A DNA stretch of 64,000 nt from an uncultured Holophagaceae bacterium (GCA_903884655.1 CAISFO010000097.1:112430-176429), one strand, 5' to 3'. Shown: positions 3,992 to 45,683, numbered from the stretch's first letter. Notes: generated by a model from the sequence alone, not told the origin. Numbers and translations are program-made.

Positions 3992-5068
3992 GTGGCCGAA
4001 GCGATCCATTGCCCGAGCTGCACCACCCGCTACCGCCTTCGCCCTGAGCGGCTGAAGCCGGTGATTCGCCGAGCGAAATGCTTTTCCTGCGGCAGTGTTT
4101 TCCCAGTGGGTGATGTCGTTCAGCGTCTGCTGACCCCCCCGGCCCAGGCCTCCACAGCCGCCTTCAAGCTCGAGGACGTGGCCGCCATCCAGCAGGATGA
4201 GCCCGCGGTGATTCCCGCCGAAGCCAGCTTGGCCTCCCTCAGTCCCGCCGATCTGGACGGCACCGATGCGGAGATCATGGAGAAGACCCTGGTGGCCGTA
4301 CCAGCCTCGCTGCCCGAGGCGAAGTCTGAAACCGCCAGTCCCTATCCGTCCGAAATCACGGAGACCACCCTCTCCGGCTACACATCGGCCCGGGATGCCA
4401 TTGAGAAGCTCTTTGGGAGCGCACCTGCCGCTCCCACCGGTCTGAAGCTGAGCCAGGATTCGAATCCCATGGACATGGAAGCCACCATGTCCGCATTGGA
4501 CCACACCCTCGGCTCCTCCTCACCCGTCCAGTCGAGCCCTGCAGCAGGCGCTCATGCTGCAGCAGCCGGGTTGTCCGAAGAGGACCTGGCCGGACCGTCC
4601 ACCTCCACGCTGCGGCTTTCCCAGCAGGAGCTCCTGGCGGCCATCGCTGCCGCACCGGCGGCAGCGGAGCCCACGGTAGCGCTGCGGGCCTCCGATCTGG
4701 TCAACGCCAAGGAAGCGACCTCGAACCTTGGAGCGACGGTTCCCATCAGGCCCACCTTCCCGCCATTGGGTGAAGCGCAGGATTCCAGTATCGAGATGCT
4801 GCGCCTCAAGATTGGCGAGGACATCTATGGCAGCCTCACCATGCCTCAGCTGATCGGGTGGGTGGAAGAGGGCCGGATTCTGGAGAACCACCTCGTGGCC
4901 CGTCAGCACAGTGAGAACTGGCTGGAGGCTCACAAGGTGCCGGGGCTGCGCCCCGTGTTCGAACGCCTTCGCCGGGAGCGCAGCGGTGGCGCCCCCAGCC
5001 TTGAGCAGCCCCCAGGCGAGATCGCCCCCAAGAAGAGCCTCTTTGGTGGCCTATTCGGAAAGAACTGA
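3992..5068 (+). CDS. MJ0042-type zinc-ribbon protein with C-terminal GYF-like domain
   Basis: The GTG start follows AGGAG by six bases. Residues 7-40 form a zinc ribbon with CPSCTTRYRL and CFSCGSVF, the MJ0042 family pattern for small Zn-binding heads on delta-proteobacterial and acidobacterial signalling proteins. A long low-complexity Ala/Pro/Ser/Glu-rich linker of about 220 residues follows. The C-terminus (YGSLTMPQLIGWVEEGRI) resembles a GYF_2-type peptide-binding fold. There is no transmembrane segment. It probably acts as an adaptor, but the partner is unknown. The next gene starts one base after the stop codon, so they form an operon. Diverges from tmk. Confidence 0.65.
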   Translation: MAEAIHCPSCTTRYRLRPERLKPVIRRAKCFSCGSVFPVGDVVQRLLTPPAQASTAAFKLEDVAAIQQDEPAVIPAEASLASLSPADLDGTDAEIMEKTLVAVPASLPEAKSETASPYPSEITETTLSGYTSARDAIEKLFGSAPAAPTGLKLSQDSNPMDMEATMSALDHTLGSSSPVQSSPAAGAHAAAAGLSEEDLAGPSTSTLRLSQQELLAAIAAAPAAAEPTVALRASDLVNAKEATSNLGATVPIRPTFPPLGEAQDSSIEMLRLKIGEDIYGSLTMPQLIGWVEEGRILENHLVARQHSENWLEAHKVPGLRPVFERLRRERSGGAPSLEQPPGEIAPKKSLFGGLFGKN

Positions 5069-5069
5069 A

Positions 5070-5657
5070 ATGCAAACCCTCATCCTGATCGCCGCCCTTG
5101 GTCTGGCCCAGGAGCCGCCCCTGCAGATTCCGCCCCCCCCAGTGGAGGCGCCGGCCCAGGCTCCCCAACCCCCGGCCAAGACCGAGGCACCGGCACCCGC
5201 TCCGGCCCCCCCGGCACCGGTGAAACCGATGGTGCCTGCCCCGGCCCCAGCTTCGGCGACACCAGCCTCTCCGCTGACCTTCTATTCTGAAAGTTTCCCC
5301 TTCGCCTGGGATCGCCTCATCCCACTGACCATCAGCCTTGATGGCCTGAAGGTGAGCAGCATCTTCTTCAACAAGCGGGTGGTGCAGTCCGGGTTTTTCA
5401 ACCTGCTCAAGGATGCTGAATTCGGTACCCGGGCCCAGGTCGAGGTCACCAACACCGGCAAGTTCCCCAAGGTCCCGGGCTTCGCGGTGGCCGTGCTGGA
5501 CAAGGATGGGCGCCTGCTCGGCGTGGCTTCCGGCGGCACCAAGGTGGGCACCATCAAGCCCGGCGAGACGGAAACGTTCGATCTGAACTTCACGCAGGTG
5601 AAGGAGCGCCTCGCCTTTGGCGACAAGTTCTTCCTGGCCATCGAACTGAGGAACTAA
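5070..5657 (+). CDS. Secreted proline/alanine-rich protein with C-terminal beta domain, function unknown
   Basis: ATG 5070 comes one base after the upstream TGA, so translation is probably coupled. A short signal-like N-terminus (MQTLILIAALGLAQE) precedes about 55 residues very rich in Pro and Ala, likely a periplasmic linker. A folded domain of about 120 residues follows, with features of an immunoglobulin-like beta sandwich: VEVTNTGKFPKVPGFAVAVLDKDG and a GTIKPGETETFDL segment. Such modules resemble FxLYD-type domains with a conserved tract on conserved relations between internal and external partners. The precise role is unknown. The last four bases overlap the end of the convergent rfaE1-like gene. 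Confidence 0.65.
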   Translation: MQTLILIAALGLAQEPPLQIPPPPVEAPAQAPQPPAKTEAPAPAPAPPAPVKPMVPAPAPASATPASPLTFYSESFPFAWDRLIPLTISLDGLKVSSIFFNKRVVQSGFFNLLKDAEFGTRAQVEVTNTGKFPKVPGFAVAVLDKDGRLLGVASGGTKVGTIKPGETETFDLNFTQVKERLAFGDKFFLAIELRN

Positions 5658-6658
5658 TTGGCCTCTTGCTCACGATAGTGCGCCAGGATCTCGTCCGGCG
5701 TGGCGGTGGCCGTGCCCATCTTGGCGACCACCACGCCAGCCGCTGCGTTGGCAAGCATGGCGGCCTCGCGCCAATCGGCGCCGGTGGCGATGGCCGCGCT
5801 GAAGGCGGCGATGACCGTGTCGCCGGCACCGCTGACATCAAACACCTCGCGGGCTTCCGTGGGAATCATCCAGGGCGCTGCATGCCCTTCATCCTGGGAG
5901 AACAGGGCCATGCCCCGCTCGCTGCGCGTCACCAGCAACCCCTTCAACCCCAGTTCCGCGATCAGGTCCCGACCTGCGATGGTCACTTCCATGTCCGACC
6001 TCGCCGGATGTCCAGTCAGTTCCGAGGCTTCCTTCGTGTTGGGCGTCATCAGCGTGGCACCACGATAGAGCAGCTTGTGGGCCGGTTTGGGATCGACCAC
6101 CCAGGGGATGTTCTGTGCCCCGCAGATCTCTCGGACTGCGTCCATCACCGGCATGTTGACCGTCCCTTTGGCGTAGTCGGACACGATGAGCGCCGAGGCG
6201 CCACCGAGCGCCCGCTCAAGCCGGTCCTTCAATCCAAGCAGCACGGCCGCGTCGGGGGGCCCGGCGTCTTCCCGGTCGATGCGCAGCATCTGCTGCTGCT
6301 GGCCGATTACGCGGGTCTTGATGATGGTGGGGCGGGAGTTGTCCAGCACCAGGCCCGAGATGGACACACCCATCCCGGTCAGCAGTCCCAGCACCCGATC
6401 ACCCGCGGCATCCTTCTGGAGGGTGCCAATGAGCAGCGGCTCCGCACCCAGGGCCTTGAGGTTGGAGGCGACATTGGCGGCGCCGCCCAGCACGACCCGC
6501 TCCCGGAGCACGCGAACGATCGGCACCGGCGCCTCCGGCGAGATGCGGTTGACCTCGCCGAATAGGTACTCGTCCAGCATCACATCGCCCAGCACGGCCA
6601 CTTTGCGGCCCTGCATGCGCTGAAGCAGGGTTTCGGCCTGGGATCGATCGAGCCTCAT
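5654..6658 (-). CDS. D-glycero-beta-D-manno-heptose-7-phosphate kinase (RfaE1/HldE kinase domain)
   Basis: The 334-residue PfkB-family kinase has GDVMLDEYLFGEVNRISPEAPVP at the start, then LGGAANVASNLKALGA, IVSDYAKGTVN, VVDPKP and the terminal DVSGAGDTVIAAF with the catalytic Asp. The DEYLFGEVNRISPEAP signature is diagnostic of RfaE domain I, which phosphorylates heptose-7-phosphate in ADP-heptose and LPS inner-core synthesis. There is no C-terminal nucleotidyltransferase domain, so the adenylylation partner must be elsewhere. I chose ATG 6658; the ORF-track extension is the antisense-like frame over the Trm112 gene. A Trm112-like gene lies 52 bp upstream in the same direction. Confidence 0.88.
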   Translation of the reverse strand: MRLDRSQAETLLQRMQGRKVAVLGDVMLDEYLFGEVNRISPEAPVPIVRVLRERVVLGGAANVASNLKALGAEPLLIGTLQKDAAGDRVLGLLTGMGVSISGLVLDNSRPTIIKTRVIGQQQQMLRIDREDAGPPDAAVLLGLKDRLERALGGASALIVSDYAKGTVNMPVMDAVREICGAQNIPWVVDPKPAHKLLYRGATLMTPNTKEASELTGHPARSDMEVTIAGRDLIAELGLKGLLVTRSERGMALFSQDEGHAAPWMIPTEAREVFDVSGAGDTVIAAFSAAIATGADWREAAMLANAAAGVVVAKMGTATATPDEILAHYREQEAN

Positions 6659-6710
6659 GGTCGCCCTTCCTGGGCACCCACCGTCACGGCCCCCCCCTGC
6701 TGCCGCGGGC

Positions 6711-6878
6711 TCACTTCTCCACCTGCTTCGCCGCGTCCACCAGCATGACGGGGATGCCATCCTCGATGGGGTAGAGCAGTCCGCACTTCTGGCAATGCAG
6801 TCCCGAGGACTGCTCCTGAAGGTCGCCATGGCAGGCCGGACAGCAGAGGATCTCGAGAAGGCGGGGATCAAGTGGCAT
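6711..6878 (-). CDS. Trm112/UPF0434 family small zinc-binding protein (absent from ORF track)
   Basis: A 55-residue frame missed by the ORF track reads MPLDPRLLEILCCPACHGDL, then LHCQKCGLLYPIEDGIPVML, ending KQVEK. The CPAC and CQKC pairs and the YPIEDGIPVML motif are the Trm112/YcaR signature. In bacteria such proteins often sit beside lipid A or LPS genes such as lpxK and kdsB, and here the gene lies just upstream of a heptose kinase. In eukaryotes the homologue activates methyltransferases; the bacterial role is not settled. Confidence 0.85.
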   Translation of the reverse strand: MPLDPRLLEILCCPACHGDLQEQSSGLHCQKCGLLYPIEDGIPVMLVDAAKQVEK

Positions 6879-6972
6879 GGAGAAAAGCTAGCAGCAGAGT
6901 GCCCTTCCCGCTTGGCGAATTTGCCCCGCCAGGGAGGGAGTAGACTGGCCTCCTTCTGCCATGAGGCCTTCC

Positions 6973-23841: not shown

Positions 23842-24285
23842 TCAGGTCCTGGGGTCCGCCCGGATGACGAGCACATCACCCGCCGCCCGGCGGATGACCC
23901 GCTCCACGGTGCTGCCGAGATGAAACGCCTCTAGGGCGCTGTGCCCCTTGTGCCCAAGCAACAGGAGGGTATCCGCGTCCGCCTGTTCCGCCAGGCATCT
24001 GGCGGGGTTCCCTGTTCGGATCAGCCCTTGGCTTCCCGGATAGGGTTCCAGCCATTGGTCCAGCAGCTTCCGGGCATTCGGTTCGAAGGTCTCGAACCAG
24101 GCGGGATCACCCATGGGCACATGGGCGCTGAACAGGGGTGGATCAGGATGCGCCACCACATGGATGGCTGTCAGTGGAACGCCGAGTCGCTGGGCCCACA
24201 GGGAAGCACGAGCCAGGGTCACCCGGCTGGCCTCCGAGAAATCGATGCCGACCAGGATGCGCTTCAGCACGGTCGCCTCGCTCAT
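23842..24285 (-). CDS. Universal stress protein family
   Basis: The 147-residue protein begins with the USP fold start ILVGIDFSEASRVTLARASLWAQRLG and VPLTAIHVVAHP. It ends GHKGHSALEAFHLGSTVERVIRRAAGDVLVIRAD. The G-x2-G-x9-G(S/T)VE nucleotide-binding motif is present as GHKGHSALEAFHLGSTVE. I chose ATG 24285 because family similarity begins nearby; the ORF-track extension is not homologous. It is convergent with the DUF2917 gene and has no other operon partner. Confidence 0.88.
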   Translation of the reverse strand: MSEATVLKRILVGIDFSEASRVTLARASLWAQRLGVPLTAIHVVAHPDPPLFSAHVPMGDPAWFETFEPNARKLLDQWLEPYPGSQGLIRTGNPARCLAEQADADTLLLLGHKGHSALEAFHLGSTVERVIRRAAGDVLVIRADPRT

Positions 24286-24416
24286 GGCGGGCCCAATGTA
24301 GGTCCGTCCCGATGTGGTTCGCGTCACAAGGCGCCGGGCGGAGGCCCGTCCCGGATGGACGATCAGCCCCGAAGCGGGGCGCATTCGCATCCCGCTTCAG
24401 GGCTGGAATGGCCCAT

Positions 24417-26456
24417 CTATGCCCTCAGGGCCTTGGCCGCCAGTTCGAGGACATCGGTGGTCGCCACGCCCTCATGGCCGGTCTCGCCGGCCGCGTTGTT
24501 CAGCATGACGTTGCAGAAGGGGCAGCCGACGGCGATGGTGGTGGCCTTGGTCTCCAGGGCCTGCTCGAAACGCTCGTGGTTCACGCGCTTGCCCAGGTGC
24601 TCCTCCAGCCAGAACCGGCCACCGCCTGCGCCACAGCACATGGTGGCTTCGCCGTGCTTTTCCATCTCCGTGAGCTTCACGCCAGGGATGGCGTCAAGGA
24701 TCGCCCGGGGCGCCTCCACCTGGCCATTGATGCGGCTGAGGTAGCAGGGGTCGTGGTAGGTCAGGTCCACATCCACGGTCTGTTCCAGCTTCAGCTTGCC
24801 CGCCGCGAGGAGCTTCGCCACCAGCTCGGTGCCGTGCACCACCTCGAACTCTCCGCCGAAGGCCGGGTACTCGTTCTTCAGGGTGTTGAGGCAATGGGGA
24901 CAGTTGGTGATGACCTTCTTCACGCTGTAGCCCTTGAGCACTTCCACATTGGCTTCCGTCGCGGTCTGGAAGAGGTACTCGTTCCCCAGGCGCCGAGCGG
25001 ATTCGCAGGTGCAGCTTTCCTCGGTGCCAAGGATGGCGAAGGACACCTCCGCCGCCTTCAGCAGCTTCACCAGGGCCTGGGAAACCTTCTGGCCGGCCGC
25101 ATCGTAGGATCCTGCGCAGCCCACCCAGAAGAGGTACTCGGCCTCGGGATTCTCGGCCATCGTCGGCACCTCGAGCCCTTCGGCCCACTTGGCCCGGTCC
25201 ACCTTGGCCAGGTTCCAGGGGTTGCCCTGGCGCTCCATGCCCTTGAAGGCCACCTGAGCCTCGGCCGGGAAGTTGCTCTCTTCCAGGGTGAGGTAGCGCC
25301 TCATGCCTACGAGCTTGTCCACGAAGCTGATCTGCAGCGGACAGGCCCACTCGCAGTAGCCACAGCTGGTGCAGGCCCAGATGGTGTCCTGGCTGATCCA
25401 GCCTTCGAGCTGCTCCTTGCTCCAGGGCGCGACTTCGTCATCGCGCTTCCAGAAGGAGCCTTCCGGCACGGGGCCGCCGATGAGCAGGCGGTCCTCGGGC
25501 ACGGCCTGATCCTGGCCCATCTGATCCAGGGGCGTGGCCTTCAGGTAGTCGCGGAGGTCATTGCCGAAATCCTTCGGACGGAGCGGCTTTCCCGTCAGCG
25601 TGGTGGGGCAGTTCTCCAGGCAGCGGCCGCATTCCACGCAGGTGTAGAAGTCGAGCATCTGCTTCCAGGTGAAGTCCTGGATCTTGTTGATGCCGAAGTG
25701 CTCGGCCTCCATGTCCATGGGCTTGAGGTTCTTCTGCGGCTCCAGCTCGCGGAAGTAGATGTTGAAGAGCGAGGTGAAGACATGGAAGTGCTTGGAGTAG
25801 GGCAGGAAGTTGGCGAAGAAGTAGAGGACCGCCAGGTGCAGCCACCACATGGTCTTGTAGAGCACCAGCAGGCCTGTGCCACCCAGGGGCCGCAGCAGGT
25901 TGGCGACGAAGAGACTGACCGGGGCCCAGGCCTTCCAGGCCGGATTGTGCAGCCAGATGTAGGCGCCATCCGCCAGCAGGTCCGTCACCATCAGGGCGCC
26001 GATGAGGCTCAGGGTGGCCCAGGCATCCCAGGAATTCTCCAGCCGCCAGGGCTTGATCACCAGGCGCCGGAAGGCGGCCAGTCCCAGACCCAGGAGCACC
26101 AGGGCCTCGAATACATCCTTGGTGGTCTGGTAGCCGTACCCGAAGCCCCCCAGGGCCTCGGTCATGTGGAAGGCAGGGAAAAGGCCCTCCAGCACCAGAC
26201 CAATGGAGCGCAAGGACAGCACGCAGAAGCCCCAGAAGATGAGGATGTGATAGAAGCCCGCGTACTTGTCCCGCACCATGCGCTGCTGCAGCAGCGCCAG
26301 GGTGAACACGCCCTTCAGGCGGACCCAGGGCTGGTCGAAGCGGTTGTCCGGCAGGCCGGCCTTCAGCGTGGCCAGCCGTAGCCGGATGGTCCAGGCGAAG
26401 AAGCCCAGGGCTCCCAGCGTCATGATCCAGAAAAGCGCGATTTCCAGGGCCTTCAT
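24417..26456 (-). CDS. Membrane Fe-S oxidoreductase, EMO-like (ETF:menaquinone oxidoreductase)
   Basis: The 679-residue protein has an N-terminal NarI-like membrane domain (about residues 1-250, five to six helices, several His positioned for b-hemes). The middle part has two [4Fe-4S] ferredoxin clusters (CVECGRCLENCP and CTSCGYCEWACP). Two C-terminal CCG domains (LFWVGCAGSYD, CTCESARR, YHDPCYLSR, MCCGAGGGRFW) are the non-cubane cluster type of HdrB. This fusion matches the ETF:(methyl)menaquinone oxidoreductase described in Geobacter and syntrophs, which passes electrons from acyl-CoA dehydrogenases via ETF to menaquinone. No etfBA genes are in the window. GGAGGG precedes the ATG. Confidence 0.85.
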   Translation of the reverse strand: MKALEIALFWIMTLGALGFFAWTIRLRLATLKAGLPDNRFDQPWVRLKGVFTLALLQQRMVRDKYAGFYHILIFWGFCVLSLRSIGLVLEGLFPAFHMTEALGGFGYGYQTTKDVFEALVLLGLGLAAFRRLVIKPWRLENSWDAWATLSLIGALMVTDLLADGAYIWLHNPAWKAWAPVSLFVANLLRPLGGTGLLVLYKTMWWLHLAVLYFFANFLPYSKHFHVFTSLFNIYFRELEPQKNLKPMDMEAEHFGINKIQDFTWKQMLDFYTCVECGRCLENCPTTLTGKPLRPKDFGNDLRDYLKATPLDQMGQDQAVPEDRLLIGGPVPEGSFWKRDDEVAPWSKEQLEGWISQDTIWACTSCGYCEWACPLQISFVDKLVGMRRYLTLEESNFPAEAQVAFKGMERQGNPWNLAKVDRAKWAEGLEVPTMAENPEAEYLFWVGCAGSYDAAGQKVSQALVKLLKAAEVSFAILGTEESCTCESARRLGNEYLFQTATEANVEVLKGYSVKKVITNCPHCLNTLKNEYPAFGGEFEVVHGTELVAKLLAAGKLKLEQTVDVDLTYHDPCYLSRINGQVEAPRAILDAIPGVKLTEMEKHGEATMCCGAGGGRFWLEEHLGKRVNHERFEQALETKATTIAVGCPFCNVMLNNAAGETGHEGVATTDVLELAAKALRA

Positions 26457-26614
26457 GGGGTCCCTCCATGCGATGAACGTTCATAACGGGCCGCGGCGCG
26501 ACGTCGAGGTCCCATATATTGTCTCACCCGGCTATCAAGTATGGTGTAAGGCCCAGTGTAGCCGTGGCCATGACAAACTGAAGGCCCGACCTTGGGTCAG
26601 CACAGGAGTCGACA

Positions 26615-26968
26615 TTGGCACCTCCCGAACCCCTGCATTTTGAAGCCGCAGTGACCCGTCCCCTGTCCGTGGTCTTCAAGGTTGGCGACCTCTGGGAAGG
26701 CCATGACTACACGGTGGAGATCATCGCTTCGCGCCAGGGCCTGGACGGCTTCGACGTGGTGGTGGACTTCCGGGACCTGGAGAGGGCCCTGGACCGCAGC
26801 CTGGTCCCCCTGCAGGGACGGCTGCTCTCGGACCTGGGCCTGGACGGCCCCCTGGCCCTGGCCCAACGACTCCTGGCTGAGCTCGCCCCCTTCGTGCCGG
26901 TCCCCGCCCGCCTCAAGGAAGTGGCGCTGACGGACGGGACGGGGCGGAAGCTGGCCGTGAGGGCCTAG
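26615..26968 (+). CDS. Degenerate 6-pyruvoyl-tetrahydropterin synthase/QueD-like protein
   Basis: The TTG start at 26615 follows AGGAG by six bases and gives 117 residues. The overall T-fold pattern of QueD/PTPS is retained: LHFEAAVTR at the start, WEGHDYTVEIIASRQG for the second strand, VVVDFRDLERALDR for the helix. The zinc ligands are not: FEAAH reads FEAAV, HGH reads EGH, and the catalytic LDH region reads LQGRLL. It may bind a pterin or have a structural role rather than act as a synthase. It is followed after five bases by a signal peptidase gene. Confidence 0.55.
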   Translation: MAPPEPLHFEAAVTRPLSVVFKVGDLWEGHDYTVEIIASRQGLDGFDVVVDFRDLERALDRSLVPLQGRLLSDLGLDGPLALAQRLLAELAPFVPVPARLKEVALTDGTGRKLAVRA

Positions 26969-41580: not shown

Positions 41581-41988
41581 TCAGGGTCTTTCTGAAGCCA
41601 CGGCTCCAAGGGGTACCACCAGGTGGCGCTTCACCGGCAGGAAGCACATCCCTTCGGGACCTTCGGTGCAGGGCTGGTAGGTGATCCACAGCTGGACGGG
41701 CTCAGCCAGGCCTTTTCCCTGCAGCTCCACCTGGACGGTGCCCCGCCAGATGGGGTCGCCGGCCTCGTCCTGCCCGACCGGGGGAGGAAGGGTGCCAAGC
41801 CGCAGGGTGCCGGGCGAGCCCAGGACCACGCCGAAGGAGTGCGTCTTGAGGTGAACCCCCTTGGGCACCTTCACCATGAGGCTGCCACCCGAGACCGACA
41901 GGACCACATCCTTCACCGGATCGAAGGCGGGGCCCGCCTGGAGCAACACCGAAAGGCACACCGTCAGCACACCAGGATGCCATTTCAT
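41581..41988 (-). CDS. DsbD-alpha-like periplasmic domain protein
   Basis: The 135-residue protein has a signal peptide (MKWHPGVLTVCLSVLLQAGPAF) and an immunoglobulin-like domain resembling the N-terminal module of DsbD: VPKGVHLKTHSFGVVLG, then LWITYQPCTEGPEGMCFLPVKRHL. The two Cys in YQPC and GMCFLP correspond to the redox pair of DsbD-alpha. A free-standing alpha domain could pass reducing equivalents to periplasmic partners. It is the last gene of the TlpA-DUF3570-ApbE operon, starting one base after the apbE stop. Confidence 0.75.
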   Translation of the reverse strand: MKWHPGVLTVCLSVLLQAGPAFDPVKDVVLSVSGGSLMVKVPKGVHLKTHSFGVVLGSPGTLRLGTLPPPVGQDEAGDPIWRGTVQVELQGKGLAEPVQLWITYQPCTEGPEGMCFLPVKRHLVVPLGAVASERP

Positions 41989-41989
41989 G

Positions 41990-42952
41990 TCAGTGCCCTC
42001 CTGGCAGCGTGGCGATTCGCGCCAGGCCTGAGGTGACCAGAAGGTCCCCCGCCTCGGTGATGAGGGCGCCTTCCACGGAGGCCGTGGACTCCAGCAGTCG
42101 CAGCCCCCGGTCGGTTCCCAGCAGGAAGGCGGCGGTGGACAGCTGGCCCGCCTGGAAGGCGGTGGGCGCCACGACGGTCACGGAGGCGATGCCCCGGGCG
42201 GGTCGGCCCGTGGTGGCATCCAGGATGTGGTGGTAGCGGACGCCATCCGCCTCGAAGCAGCGCTCGTAATCCCCGGTTGTGGCGACGCCGCAGTCCTCCT
42301 TGGCCCGGATCGCAAGTCGGAACCGCCCGGGGTCCCGGGGATCCTGCACGCCAACCACCCAGGGCTGTCCGTCGCCGCGCCGTCCCAGGGTGCGCACATC
42401 GCCAAGGAAATTGACCAGGGCAGATTCCACACCTTCTTTCTTGAGCAACTCCGCCACCCGGTCCGCCGCGTATTCCTTGCCGACGCCACCCAGGTCAACT
42501 TCCATGTCTTTCCTGGCTAGACGCACGGTGCCGTGCTGCATCACCACGGCGCTGGCATCGACGCGGGGAAGCAGAGCCGCGAGGTCCTCATCCGAAGGCA
42601 CCACCGCCTTCCGGAAGTCCCAGACCCGCCGCAGCACACCCACGGTGGGATCGAAGCGGCCCTCGGTGAGCGCCGCCAGAGCCAGGGCTGCGCGCAGGAG
42701 TGTTTCCGTTTCCTCGTCGATGGCCACGGGGGAACCACCGGCCTCGTCGTTGATCTCGGACACCACGCTGGTGGGCCGGTAGCGGGAGAACTTGGCTTCG
42801 ATGCGCCGGGCTTCGGCCACGGCTTCGCGCATGAGGACCGTCGCCGATTCCTGGCCGCGATGATCCACGAAGCGGACCTCCGCTGAGCCGCCCATGAGGG
42901 GGAAGTGGGCGGTATAGAGGGTCCGCCCCTCCACGGGCGTCAGTACCGCCAT
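41990..42952 (-). CDS. FAD:protein FMN transferase (ApbE family)
   Basis: The 320-residue enzyme transfers FMN from FAD to Thr or Ser of target proteins. It has FPLMGGSAEVRF, EAKFSRYRPTSVVSEIN, GRFDPTVGVL, MEVDLGGVGKEYAADRVAELL, VNFLGDVRTLG and the metal-site HHILDATTGRPA. No export signal is visible. The likely flavinylated target is not identified here; no protein in this cluster carries an obvious FMN-attachment motif. The start overlaps the DUF3570 gene by 13 bp, so they are cotranscribed. Confidence 0.9.
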   Translation of the reverse strand: MAVLTPVEGRTLYTAHFPLMGGSAEVRFVDHRGQESATVLMREAVAEARRIEAKFSRYRPTSVVSEINDEAGGSPVAIDEETETLLRAALALAALTEGRFDPTVGVLRRVWDFRKAVVPSDEDLAALLPRVDASAVVMQHGTVRLARKDMEVDLGGVGKEYAADRVAELLKKEGVESALVNFLGDVRTLGRRGDGQPWVVGVQDPRDPGRFRLAIRAKEDCGVATTGDYERCFEADGVRYHHILDATTGRPARGIASVTVVAPTAFQAGQLSTAAFLLGTDRGLRLLESTASVEGALITEAGDLLVTSGLARIATLPGGH

Positions 42953-44166
42953 TTCAGGCCCAGGGTGAGGGTGGTCGTGTTCACATCGGCGGCCGAGGTC
43001 GTCGGGCCCGCGTAGACCGCTGGAGAGCTCAGGGTGGCCGCGGTCTGAAGCGGCGTCAGCTGGTTCCTGCCCTGCTGGAACTGGTAGCTGCCACCGAAAC
43101 TCAGGGTCAGGTCATTGGTGAGGTCCACCGATACGCTGCAGCCCAGCAGGATGCTGTCCATGGCCGAGAGCCGGTAGTCGGCGGACATGTAGGCCTGGGG
43201 TGCGGCGAACTGAGCTCCGTAGAAGGAGGCCGCGCTCTGGGAATAGAAGCGGAGTCTGGGCGTGAGGATCCAGCCGTCATCGATGTGCTGGTCATACGTG
43301 AAATCCAGGGTGTGGGCCTTGATGCCCCAGTCGTCCCGGTAGTAGCGGTAGGTGGTCTTGAGGGCGCCGTCCCATTCGAAGTAGTGGGCCTGCTTGATGA
43401 AGAAGGCATCTCGCACCCGCGTATCCGGGCGGCGTTCGGACACGGTGGTGGTTCCCACCGGCACGATGAGGTAGGGCTCGTTCAGGTCCCCCTTCAGGTT
43501 CATCCTGCTGGTGCCCACATCCAGGAGATCGTTTTCGCCCAGCACCCAGGTCCAGCCCAAGGCGTATCCATGCTCTTTCTTCGGGAACTGCAGGTTCGTG
43601 GTGACGGGCGCCACCGTGTCGTCGGACCAGGAGAGGCCATAGTGCAGGGTGCCCCGGCCCTCGAACATGGTCCAGGCGTCCGAGATGCCGGATCCCCGGG
43701 CGGTGTAGTCCTTCTCCACTGAGTGGGACAGGTCCACCGTGGGCAGGTGGGCCCCCAGCCGGAGGCTGTAGGTGATCCCCTCGGCTTTGCGCTCATCCCG
43801 GAACTGGGCCATGGGGATCTTGCCCGCAGCATTGGTGCTGGTGTTGCCTGAGGCCGAAGTGCTGGTGGTCACGCTGAGGGTCGGGTAGGCCCCGGTGGGC
43901 GAGGCCCCAGACACGCTGTCGTGGGCCAGCAGCAGATCGATCTGGCCGAGGGCCTCGCCGAGATCCTGGTGGAGCAGGAAGGTGGGGTTCGACACCTGGG
44001 TGCGGCCATCGGATTCGCTGTAGAAGAGGTAGCGGAATTCGACGGAAGACTGGGCCCGCGCCACCCGGCCACCGAGCATGCCGAGACCCGCGACCATCCA
44101 GGGCATGCCCCGCAGGACCTGCCGCCCCCGCCGCCGTGCCAGTCGGGTTCCCTCAGTTGCAGCCAC
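42940..44166 (-). CDS. DUF3570 beta-barrel-like outer-membrane protein
   Basis: The GTG start at 44166 has GGGAGG five bases upstream and overlaps the end of the TlpA fusion gene by 14 bp, giving 408 residues. A basic LARRRGRQVLRG run precedes a signal core (MPWMVAGLGMLGG). Repeated amphipathic strands follow (VEFRYLFYSESDGRTQV, TLDFTYDQHIDDGWILTPRLRFY), and the protein ends TLTLGLKWRY. The terminal aromatic and the strand pattern support an outer-membrane barrel. DUF3570 genes commonly accompany DUF4266, TlpA-like and ApbE genes, as here. Function is unknown but probably redox-linked. Confidence 0.8.
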   Translation of the reverse strand: MAATEGTRLARRRGRQVLRGMPWMVAGLGMLGGRVARAQSSVEFRYLFYSESDGRTQVSNPTFLLHQDLGEALGQIDLLLAHDSVSGASPTGAYPTLSVTTSTSASGNTSTNAAGKIPMAQFRDERKAEGITYSLRLGAHLPTVDLSHSVEKDYTARGSGISDAWTMFEGRGTLHYGLSWSDDTVAPVTTNLQFPKKEHGYALGWTWVLGENDLLDVGTSRMNLKGDLNEPYLIVPVGTTTVSERRPDTRVRDAFFIKQAHYFEWDGALKTTYRYYRDDWGIKAHTLDFTYDQHIDDGWILTPRLRFYSQSAASFYGAQFAAPQAYMSADYRLSAMDSILLGCSVSVDLTNDLTLSFGGSYQFQQGRNQLTPLQTAATLSSPAVYAGPTTSAADVNTTTLTLGLKWRY

Positions 44167-44860
44167 AGCCGCCTCCCGCCGCGCCGCCGGTACCCGCCGC
44201 CGCCTCCTTGCTGGCGTGGATGTGCTCCCTCTGCATGAGGGTGAGCCGGTCCCCATCCAGGCTCATGATGGGATCGGCCAGATGACCTCGCCGCCAGGCC
44301 TTCAGAGAGCCGGTGGCCTGCAGCCCTGACGCCACACGCACGTCCCTTCCCGAACCACCACCCTCAAGCAGTGCCGCCACCGCGTCGGCCTCCTCCCTGG
44401 CATGGGAGCCCCCCTCGAAGCGGGCTGCAATGCGACCTTCCCGGTCGATGAGAAAGGTGGTGGGCATGGCCACGACCTTGAAGGCCTCTCCCGTCAGCCC
44501 CGCCGGATCAGGCAGGATGGGGAATCCCACGGGCACCTTTTCCAGGAAGGCGCTCATGGCCCCCCCATCCGAGTCCAGGGAAATCCCCACGACCTTGAGC
44601 CCCTGGGGGGCGAACCGCCGCTGGATGCCATCCAGGTCCGGCAGGCTCTTGCGGCAGGGCCCGCACCAGGAGGCCCAGAAATCGATCAGTACGACCTGGC
44701 CCCTGAAGTCGGCAAGCGAGAAGGCCTTTCCGGACAGGTCCTTCAGCTGGACGGAAGGCGCCGGTTCTCCCTTCCCTGCCGCCCCCAGGGTGGTACCGGC
44801 CAGCAGGAGAAGGACGACCATCAGAGGTCGGGCTCGGAGACTCGGGAATGGGCCGTGCAT
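44153..44860 (-). CDS. TlpA-like thioredoxin fused to DUF4266
   Basis: The 235-residue protein has a signal/anchor (PLMVVLLLLAGTTLG) and a TlpA/ResA domain with FWASWCGPCRKS at residues 62-72 and VVAMPTTFLIDREGRIAARFEGG. From about residue 180 it carries the small DUF4266 module: WRRGHLADPIMSLDGD, HIHASKEAAAGTGGAAGG and the invariant GGGCGCN end. In other genomes DUF4266 is usually a separate small lipoprotein beside DUF3570 and ApbE, so this is a fusion. It probably reduces disulfides and delivers or anchors the DUF4266 peptide in the periplasm. GGAG precedes the ATG. It heads the four-gene operon. Confidence 0.8.
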   Translation of the reverse strand: MHGPFPSLRARPLMVVLLLLAGTTLGAAGKGEPAPSVQLKDLSGKAFSLADFRGQVVLIDFWASWCGPCRKSLPDLDGIQRRFAPQGLKVVGISLDSDGGAMSAFLEKVPVGFPILPDPAGLTGEAFKVVAMPTTFLIDREGRIAARFEGGSHAREEADAVAALLEGGGSGRDVRVASGLQATGSLKAWRRGHLADPIMSLDGDRLTLMQREHIHASKEAAAGTGGAAGGGCGCN

Positions 44861-45092: not shown

Positions 45093-45683
45093 ATGGCTTC
45101 CACCCTCCGGGATCTGCTGATCCAACGCGCCGCGCGGTTGCAGGACCGCCCCGCCCTCACCGCTCCGGATTGGGGGACCTTGAACTACAGCCAGTACCGC
45201 AACCGGGTCGAGGGGGTGGCCAAGGGTCTGCTGTCCGCCGGGCCTCACTCCAGCGTGTTCAGCGCCACCGGCACGGCCTGGGACTGGGCCGCCGAACTGG
45301 CCGCCGCCGCCTCGGGCCTGACCTGGGATGCGGCCGGATCCCGGGTGACTTCCGATGTGCTGGGCGGGCCACGTTTCAACGACGAAGCCGGCCGGGGCCC
45401 CTACCACGCCCGGGAGCAGGTGGTTCAGGCGGAGACCGTCTACAGTCCCGGACTCAGCCACGGCGAAATGCTGACCAGGCTGCGTCGGCTCAACGTGGAG
45501 CTTGGATGGGACCATGACAGCCGGGTGGAGCTGCCCTGGGCCCAGGCCGGAAGCCCAGATATCCGTGCCGCCCTGTGGTGCGCCCTGTACGCCGGCGCCC
45601 ATGCCGTCCTGGGCTCTGCATCAACCTGGGATGCGAGGCCCTTTCACGACTTCTGGTCAACCCCACGGACCCTTGGGACCTGA
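45093..45683 (+). CDS. Small acyl-CoA-synthetase-like protein lacking catalytic motifs
   Basis: The 196-residue frame starts TLRDLLIQRAARLQDRPALTAPDWGTLNYSQYRNRVEGVAKGLLSAG. This resembles the first 45-60 residues of AMP-forming acyl-CoA synthetases. The P-loop, adenylation motifs and C-terminal domain are absent. The rest (VFSATGTAWDWAAELAAAASGLTWDAA, later PDIRAALWCALYAGAHAVLG) keeps an alternating helix-sheet pattern reminiscent of the N-terminal subdomain. It may be a shortened binding protein or a relic. The ribosome site is weak. It lies 66 bp upstream of the WYL regulator. Confidence 0.5.
   Translation: MASTLRDLLIQRAARLQDRPALTAPDWGTLNYSQYRNRVEGVAKGLLSAGPHSSVFSATGTAWDWAAELAAAASGLTWDAAGSRVTSDVLGGPRFNDEAGRGPYHAREQVVQAETVYSPGLSHGEMLTRLRRLNVELGWDHDSRVELPWAQAGSPDIRAALWCALYAGAHAVLGSASTWDARPFHDFWSTPRTLGT

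Follow-up and report, generated by a model that had tools for sequence, protein, structure and literature searches.

A conserved Holophagaceae operon with a TlpA-DUF4266 fusion, a predicted DUF3570 flavin barrel and a leaderless ApbE, a candidate heme-free outer-membrane electron-transfer unit

The operon analysed here lies in a 64,000-nucleotide stretch of DNA (the window) from an uncultured Holophagaceae bacterium (GCA_903884655.1 CAISFO010000097.1:112430-176429), on contig C97 of a 3.9 Mb assembly in 98 contigs, and brings together, head to tail and all on the minus strand of the window, a TlpA-type thioredoxin fused to DUF4266, a DUF3570 protein, an ApbE flavin transferase and a lone DsbD alpha domain. 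The reading that we lean towards, with modest confidence, is that these genes encode a heme-free outer-membrane electron-transfer unit, in which electrons would pass from DsbD to the lone DsbD head (nDsbD), then to TlpA, to the CxC tail of DUF4266, to a flavin mononucleotide (FMN) on the DUF3570 barrel and finally to an acceptor outside the cell. Electron export, one of the two roles proposed in an earlier note on this DNA, is supported as the likeliest role, and its view of a single operon joining thiol reduction, flavin transfer and an outer-membrane barrel is borne out by gene content and conservation. The features of the locus are as follows.

44153..44860, minus strand: TlpA/ResA-type thioredoxin fused to DUF4266, with a Sec-type leader (Pfam, structure model, Foldseek).
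42940..44166, minus strand: DUF3570 protein, predicted outer-membrane barrel and predicted FMN carrier (Pfam E = 2e-59, AlphaFold2, Foldseek, motif DSVSGAS).
42940..42952, minus strand: overlap of 13 nucleotides between the DUF3570 stop and the ApbE start (gene calls).
41990..42952, minus strand: ApbE flavin transferase of a leaderless subtype, with GGVGKEY and with AGQLST replacing AD-x-L-[ST]-T (Pfam E = 7.5e-80, diagnostic residues, own tree branch).
41581..41988, minus strand: lone DsbD alpha domain (nDsbD) with a leader and the cysteine pair YQPC-x7-C (identity to same-genome DsbD heads).

The FLAVINYLATED target of this operon is probably the DUF3570 protein of the window itself, and the earlier statement that the flavinylated target is absent from the window was wrong. 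A motif scan of the 55 called window genes found D-x-x-[S/T]-G-A-[S/T] only once, as DSVSGAS in DUF3570, which removed any second candidate target within the window; the second flavinylation motif position of this protein reads TGAY, leaving one full motif. In Chlorobium luteolum, flavinylation of DUF3570 by the ApbE that belongs with it was demonstrated by Meheust et al. (2021, eLife, PMC8238504). It is hardly credible that the operon ApbE instead works on some unrelated flavoprotein, cytosolic or respiratory, and stands here by chance, a reading that could draw on its missing leader, on the cytosolic ApbEs with cytosolic targets described for Klebsiella in the consulted sections of PMC12052999, and on the FMN_bind protein that the genome also encodes. 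Among 77 Holophagaceae genomes, the 16 that encode DUF3570 are precisely the 16 with an ApbE of the operon type, whose identity is 64-100% where the next best match reaches 38%; the sixteenth of them (G037) has no DUF4266 match. Two operon-bearing genomes of 97% completeness hold this ApbE only and no FMN_bind protein, which disfavours the condition that the earlier note named as a refutation, ApbE activity confined to unrelated respiratory proteins. The FMN_bind protein of the window genome was likewise rejected as the target of the operon ApbE, as it lies near a leader-bearing ApbE of its own.

Two other flavinylation settings were seen alongside these. On contig C53 of genome G000 (24126-26785; locus L033, about 4091-6900), next to mutL, a second, leader-bearing ApbE and the FMN_bind protein make up a separate flavinylation unit of the genome, with an uncharacterised open frame of 469 amino acids between them. 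In a divergent DUF3570 group that lacks the motif (loci L070, L072, L075, L083, L119 and L152), the neighbouring ApbEs are leader-bearing with canonical residues and perhaps have a different target.

Structural modelling predicts that DUF3570 is a 16-strand outer-membrane barrel. AlphaFold2, given 92 aligned relatives, returned a model of 16 long strands with a predicted local distance difference test score of 95, and Foldseek matched this model in the PDB to the outer-membrane barrels FadL, OmpG, the Occ porins, PelB and BcsC; at the sequence level, PDB searches with DUF4266 and DUF3570 gave no credible relatives. The C-terminal residue is F, Y or W in 93 of 106 DUF3570 proteins, and the window protein ends in TLGLKWRY, which resembles a signal for the barrel assembly machinery (BAM). 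DUF3570 thus combines an even strand number, an aromatic C-terminus and a leader, albeit a weak one; export by the twin-arginine (Tat) route was set aside, no recurring twin-arginine pattern being present. With both ends in the periplasm, as is the case in known barrels, the long loops of DUF3570 would lie outside. On the model, 40 of the 45 most conserved residues lie on the extracellular side, which holds 231 of 367 positions (p = 4e-5), which is the reverse of the usual pattern, outer loops being as a rule the most variable part. The flavin serine, S51 in mature numbering, is predicted at the extracellular end of strand 3.

The ApbE of the operon belongs to a distinct subtype that lacks an export leader. 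It begins 19 residues before the domain match with no hydrophobic stretch, and hydropathy shows no leader in 84 of the 85 ApbE frames whose operons encode a DUF3570 with the motif, a set that includes two duplicate loci and one split gene. At loci without the DUF3570 motif 9 of 14 ApbE frames are leader-bearing, one being the second ApbE of the window genome (32% identical to the operon enzyme); the paralogous ApbEs checked in the same genomes have an N-terminal hydrophobic stretch, and 112 of 122 thioredoxins from the same loci carry a hydrophobic leader. A quick tree placed the leaderless ApbEs on one side of a supported branch (96), and two positions separate the groups: residue 160 is Glu in 89/89 leaderless and Gly in 22/22 leader-bearing enzymes, and residue 269 is Gly in 87/89 of the former against Asp in 21/22 of the latter, while K159 and the catalytic H242 are conserved in both. 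G269 aligns with an Asp of the Treponema sequence that we take for Asp284, a ligand of the second Mg along with Ala162 and Thr288 (PMC5655446), and Glu160 falls by alignment close to the Ala162 position. The acidic Mg ligand may therefore have moved from the Asp site to the nearby Glu. Compared with the canonical periplasmic ApbEs of Vibrio cholerae, Treponema (Ftp) and Listeria (FmnB), the operon enzyme shares the family, the Lys of GG-x-x-K and the catalytic His, and differs in its missing leader, in Gly at the Mg-binding Asp and in Glu for Gly near the Ala162 ligand.

Since the operon ApbE is leaderless, unlike its paralogues, FMN is probably attached to DUF3570 in the cytosol, before export. 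This is also the simplest reading because flavin adenine dinucleotide (FAD) is plentiful in the cytosol and the barrel would there be as yet unfolded. Chlorobiaceae operons are mostly of the leaderless ApbE type, and a Chlorobium ApbE/DUF3570 pair was active in the experiments of PMC8238504, whose text as searched does not discuss leaderless ApbE or cytosolic attachment to DUF3570. The cytosolic ApbE of Klebsiella pneumoniae likewise has no signal peptide, and the 2025 review describing it links cytosolic ApbEs, in the sections consulted, only to intracellular targets (PMC12052999). The Klebsiella target is a soluble fumarate reductase, whereas the target here bears a leader and is predicted to lie in the outer membrane.

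On the thiol side, the fusion of a TlpA thioredoxin to a DUF4266 ending in GGGCGCN, as read in the earlier note, was confirmed: Pfam places AhpC-TSA/Redoxin and DUF4266 (E = 8e-18, residues 187-235) in one frame, and the relatives agree. The thioredoxin domain is complete, with WCGPC and the cis-Pro loop AMPT, and Foldseek matched the fusion to DsbE, ResA and TlpA. In the structure model an ordered, ResA-like thioredoxin domain is followed by a helix (178-194) and then a disordered CxC tail, which could plausibly serve as a swinging arm. DUF4266 is present in 15 of 77 Holophagaceae genomes and fused in all 15; across Acidobacteriota it occurs in 33 of 396 genomes, where 8 outside Holophagaceae are also fused and others have separate genes, the stand-alone forms resembling lipoproteins. 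With 23 sampled Acidobacteriota loci carrying the same fusion, an assembly error as its source is ruled out; among 78 other loci of a genome-collection scan, sampled as the best 80 matches of one scan, it was seen in none. The DUF3570 tree divides the fused loci between two branches, with two changes forced by well-supported forks, and the branches also differ in the overlapping DUF3570 start codon; two origins of the fusion are therefore likely, and a single origin was rejected on this tree. Fusion in two separate branches supports the proposal that the thioredoxin handles DUF4266 directly.

The earlier note had also considered peptide maturation. On such a reading DUF4266 would be a precursor, its Cys-rich tail being modified and then set free. 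The strict conservation of the short Gly/Cys tail would suit such a precursor, yet in 23 loci DUF4266 forms one protein with a catalytic thioredoxin, its stand-alone form resembles a lipoprotein, and no modifying enzyme, protease or exporter is conserved nearby, nor does any maturation enzyme occur in the operon or recur in its relatives. Peptide maturation is thus unsupported, and we regard it as very improbable.

The fourth gene encodes the electron-delivering head of DsbD, which is all that Holophagaceae keep of this protein in the operon. After ApbE, many beta-proteobacterial and Chlorobi operons carry a full-length DsbD, whereas in Holophagaceae the alpha domain stands alone with its Cys pair retained. 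The lone head scores 20.5 bits against DsbD_N, under the Pfam cut-off of 25; even so, it is 39-44% identical to the heads of the two full-length DsbDs encoded elsewhere in the same genome and keeps YQPC-x7-C, so that the free DsbD-alpha-like domain called earlier from the sequence stands. It is 135 amino acids long, without transmembrane and gamma domains, and a convergent neighbour ends directly after it. In Neisseria PilB a DsbD head reduces a TlpA-fold domain, and with DsbD in the inner membrane and its client reported at the outer one, the distance between the two is a stated puzzle (PMC6210582); a soluble head would solve a distance puzzle of this type. The operon resembles the DsbD/nDsbD and PilB pairing in that a Cys-pair head would reduce a TlpA-fold domain fused to the final client, and differs in that the head is a separate small secreted protein and the client a CxC tail in place of a methionine sulfoxide reductase. 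The presence of DsbD or its head, a reductive supplier, also speaks against an oxidative direction, in which the barrel flavin would be only a sink or sensor for periplasmic thiols, oxidising or signalling through DUF4266, for example. Such a direction could find some footing in the two-component kinase-like proteins that loose clustering placed near 23 loci, and in the fact that the direction of flow in our own model is one that we infer; we consider it quite improbable.

The heme-free electron-transfer unit that we favour would work as follows. The leaderless, dedicated ApbE would place FMN on the serine ending DSVSGAS while the DUF3570 chain is still cytosolic; Sec would then export DUF3570, which is predicted to fold as the 16-strand barrel with its flavin in the extracellular half. 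Electrons would exit the cytosol via one of the two full-length DsbDs, and the free DsbD head would ferry them through the periplasm as far as TlpA. The TlpA domain would then reduce the CxC cysteines in the flexible tail of the DUF4266 to which it is fused, and from this tail the electrons would reach the barrel flavin, which would in turn reduce an acceptor outside, perhaps ferric iron or another oxidised compound. A more specific version, in which cytosolic FMN loading by a leaderless ApbE with its ligand shifted from Asp to Glu sends the barrel across the inner membrane already flavinylated, and in which the flavin sits in the barrel lumen and is supplied by a mobile CxC arm joined to the reductase of that arm, is more tentative and in our estimate doubtful.

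Iron is the sole hint of an acceptor that we found in the literature, in 25 VIT1-linked clusters. An alternative built on metals would make the GGGCGCN tail an iron or copper ligand kept reduced by TlpA, in the manner of TlpA and Sco for copper centres, with the flavin barrel reducing ferric iron or serving as a port of entry in metal assimilation. TlpA-type thioredoxins do keep metal-site cysteines reduced, and Foldseek gave a match to the TlpA-cytochrome oxidase subunit II complex; against this, the sampled neighbourhoods show no recurring gene for a metal transporter or a metalloregulator, and a CxC pair without further conserved ligands makes a thin metal site. We judge metal handling unlikely.

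Several points weigh against the electron-transfer unit as we have drawn it. The flow of electrons through DUF3570 and DUF4266 is one that we infer, in particular its step from the CxC tail, in the periplasm, to a flavin predicted in the extracellular half of the barrel. The DUF3570 leader is only weakly hydrophobic, which would also fit late export, and leader calls throughout were made by hydropathy and not by a trained predictor. We know of no Sec-exported chain that carries covalent FMN during export. The short thioredoxin alignment leaves the two fusion origins unconfirmed, one clade not being rejected (approximately unbiased test, p = 0.76). Finally, recurring partner genes in the sampled neighbourhoods formed loose clusters only, mainly of two-component kinases, and named no acceptor.

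The four genes form one operon that is conserved in Holophagaceae, and the order thioredoxin, DUF4266, DUF3570 and ApbE, often followed by a full DsbD, is found in most of more than 100 loci from many phyla. The gene overlaps cited in the earlier note as showing one operon hold for two of the three junctions: DUF4266 and DUF3570 share 14 nucleotides, given a DUF3570 start at GTG 44166, and DUF3570 overlaps ApbE as listed above, but ApbE and the DsbD-head gene do not overlap and lie 1 nucleotide apart. The best-placed DUF3570 start is the GTG at 44166, which falls inside the TGT-GGC pair that encodes Cys-Gly in the DUF4266 tail and has GGGAGG five bases ahead of it; in the other fused branch the start is an ATG or GTG four bases later. 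The first tail Cys codon is TGT in 19/19 fused loci of the window type, and since TGT is kept there although rare in the window (28 of 174 Cys codons among its genes), it is probable that DUF3570 does start within the overlap and that the two genes are coupled in translation. A promoter and terminator scan found nothing and was uninformative.

Around these operons, two-component histidine-kinase-like genes were seen by loose clustering mostly in Gammaproteobacteria (for example L084, L088 and L103). A repeat protein lies near the operon at L131:9743-12157 and at eight related loci in Chlorobi and beta-proteobacteria, its L131 open frame starting with a run of about 35 glycines. In the window, an open frame of 196 amino acids on the plus strand (45093-45683), divergent from the operon, resembles the start of an acyl-CoA/AMP ligase and is possibly a shortened gene.

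Flavinylation clusters of thioredoxin, DUF4266, DUF3570 and ApbE, with or without DsbD, have already been described (PMC8238504), and the present system is known in outline. In the searched text of that study the clusters share with ours the four domains, DUF3570 as an ApbE substrate, the DUF4266 CxC tail and the proposed supply of electrons from DsbD; ours differs in joining thioredoxin and DUF4266 in one protein, in carrying the DsbD alpha domain alone and in having one motif instead of two. The same text makes no mention of a barrel fold, a leaderless ApbE or a fusion. What we add is the fusion, the DsbD trimmed to its head, a predicted barrel that is most conserved on its outer side, and a branch of ApbEs that lack a leader and have an altered metal site.

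Most of the known routes that take electrons through the outer membrane consist of multiheme cytochromes set in barrels. If our reading is right, the operon would resemble MtrCAB-type conduits in that a barrel passes electrons across the outer membrane, and would differ in having no cytochrome in the operon and in using flavin and thiols instead of hemes; we claim no sequence relation. Should DUF3570 be a thiol-fed flavin barrel, many bacteria in several phyla would have a different outer-membrane electron route. The fused Acidobacteriota version packs the donor side of this putative system into one purifiable, testable protein. The leaderless ApbE branch implies an exported outer-membrane flavoprotein that is modified before export, and modification at this stage would explain both how ApbE is supplied with FAD and how it gains access to a serine destined for the distal side of the barrel.

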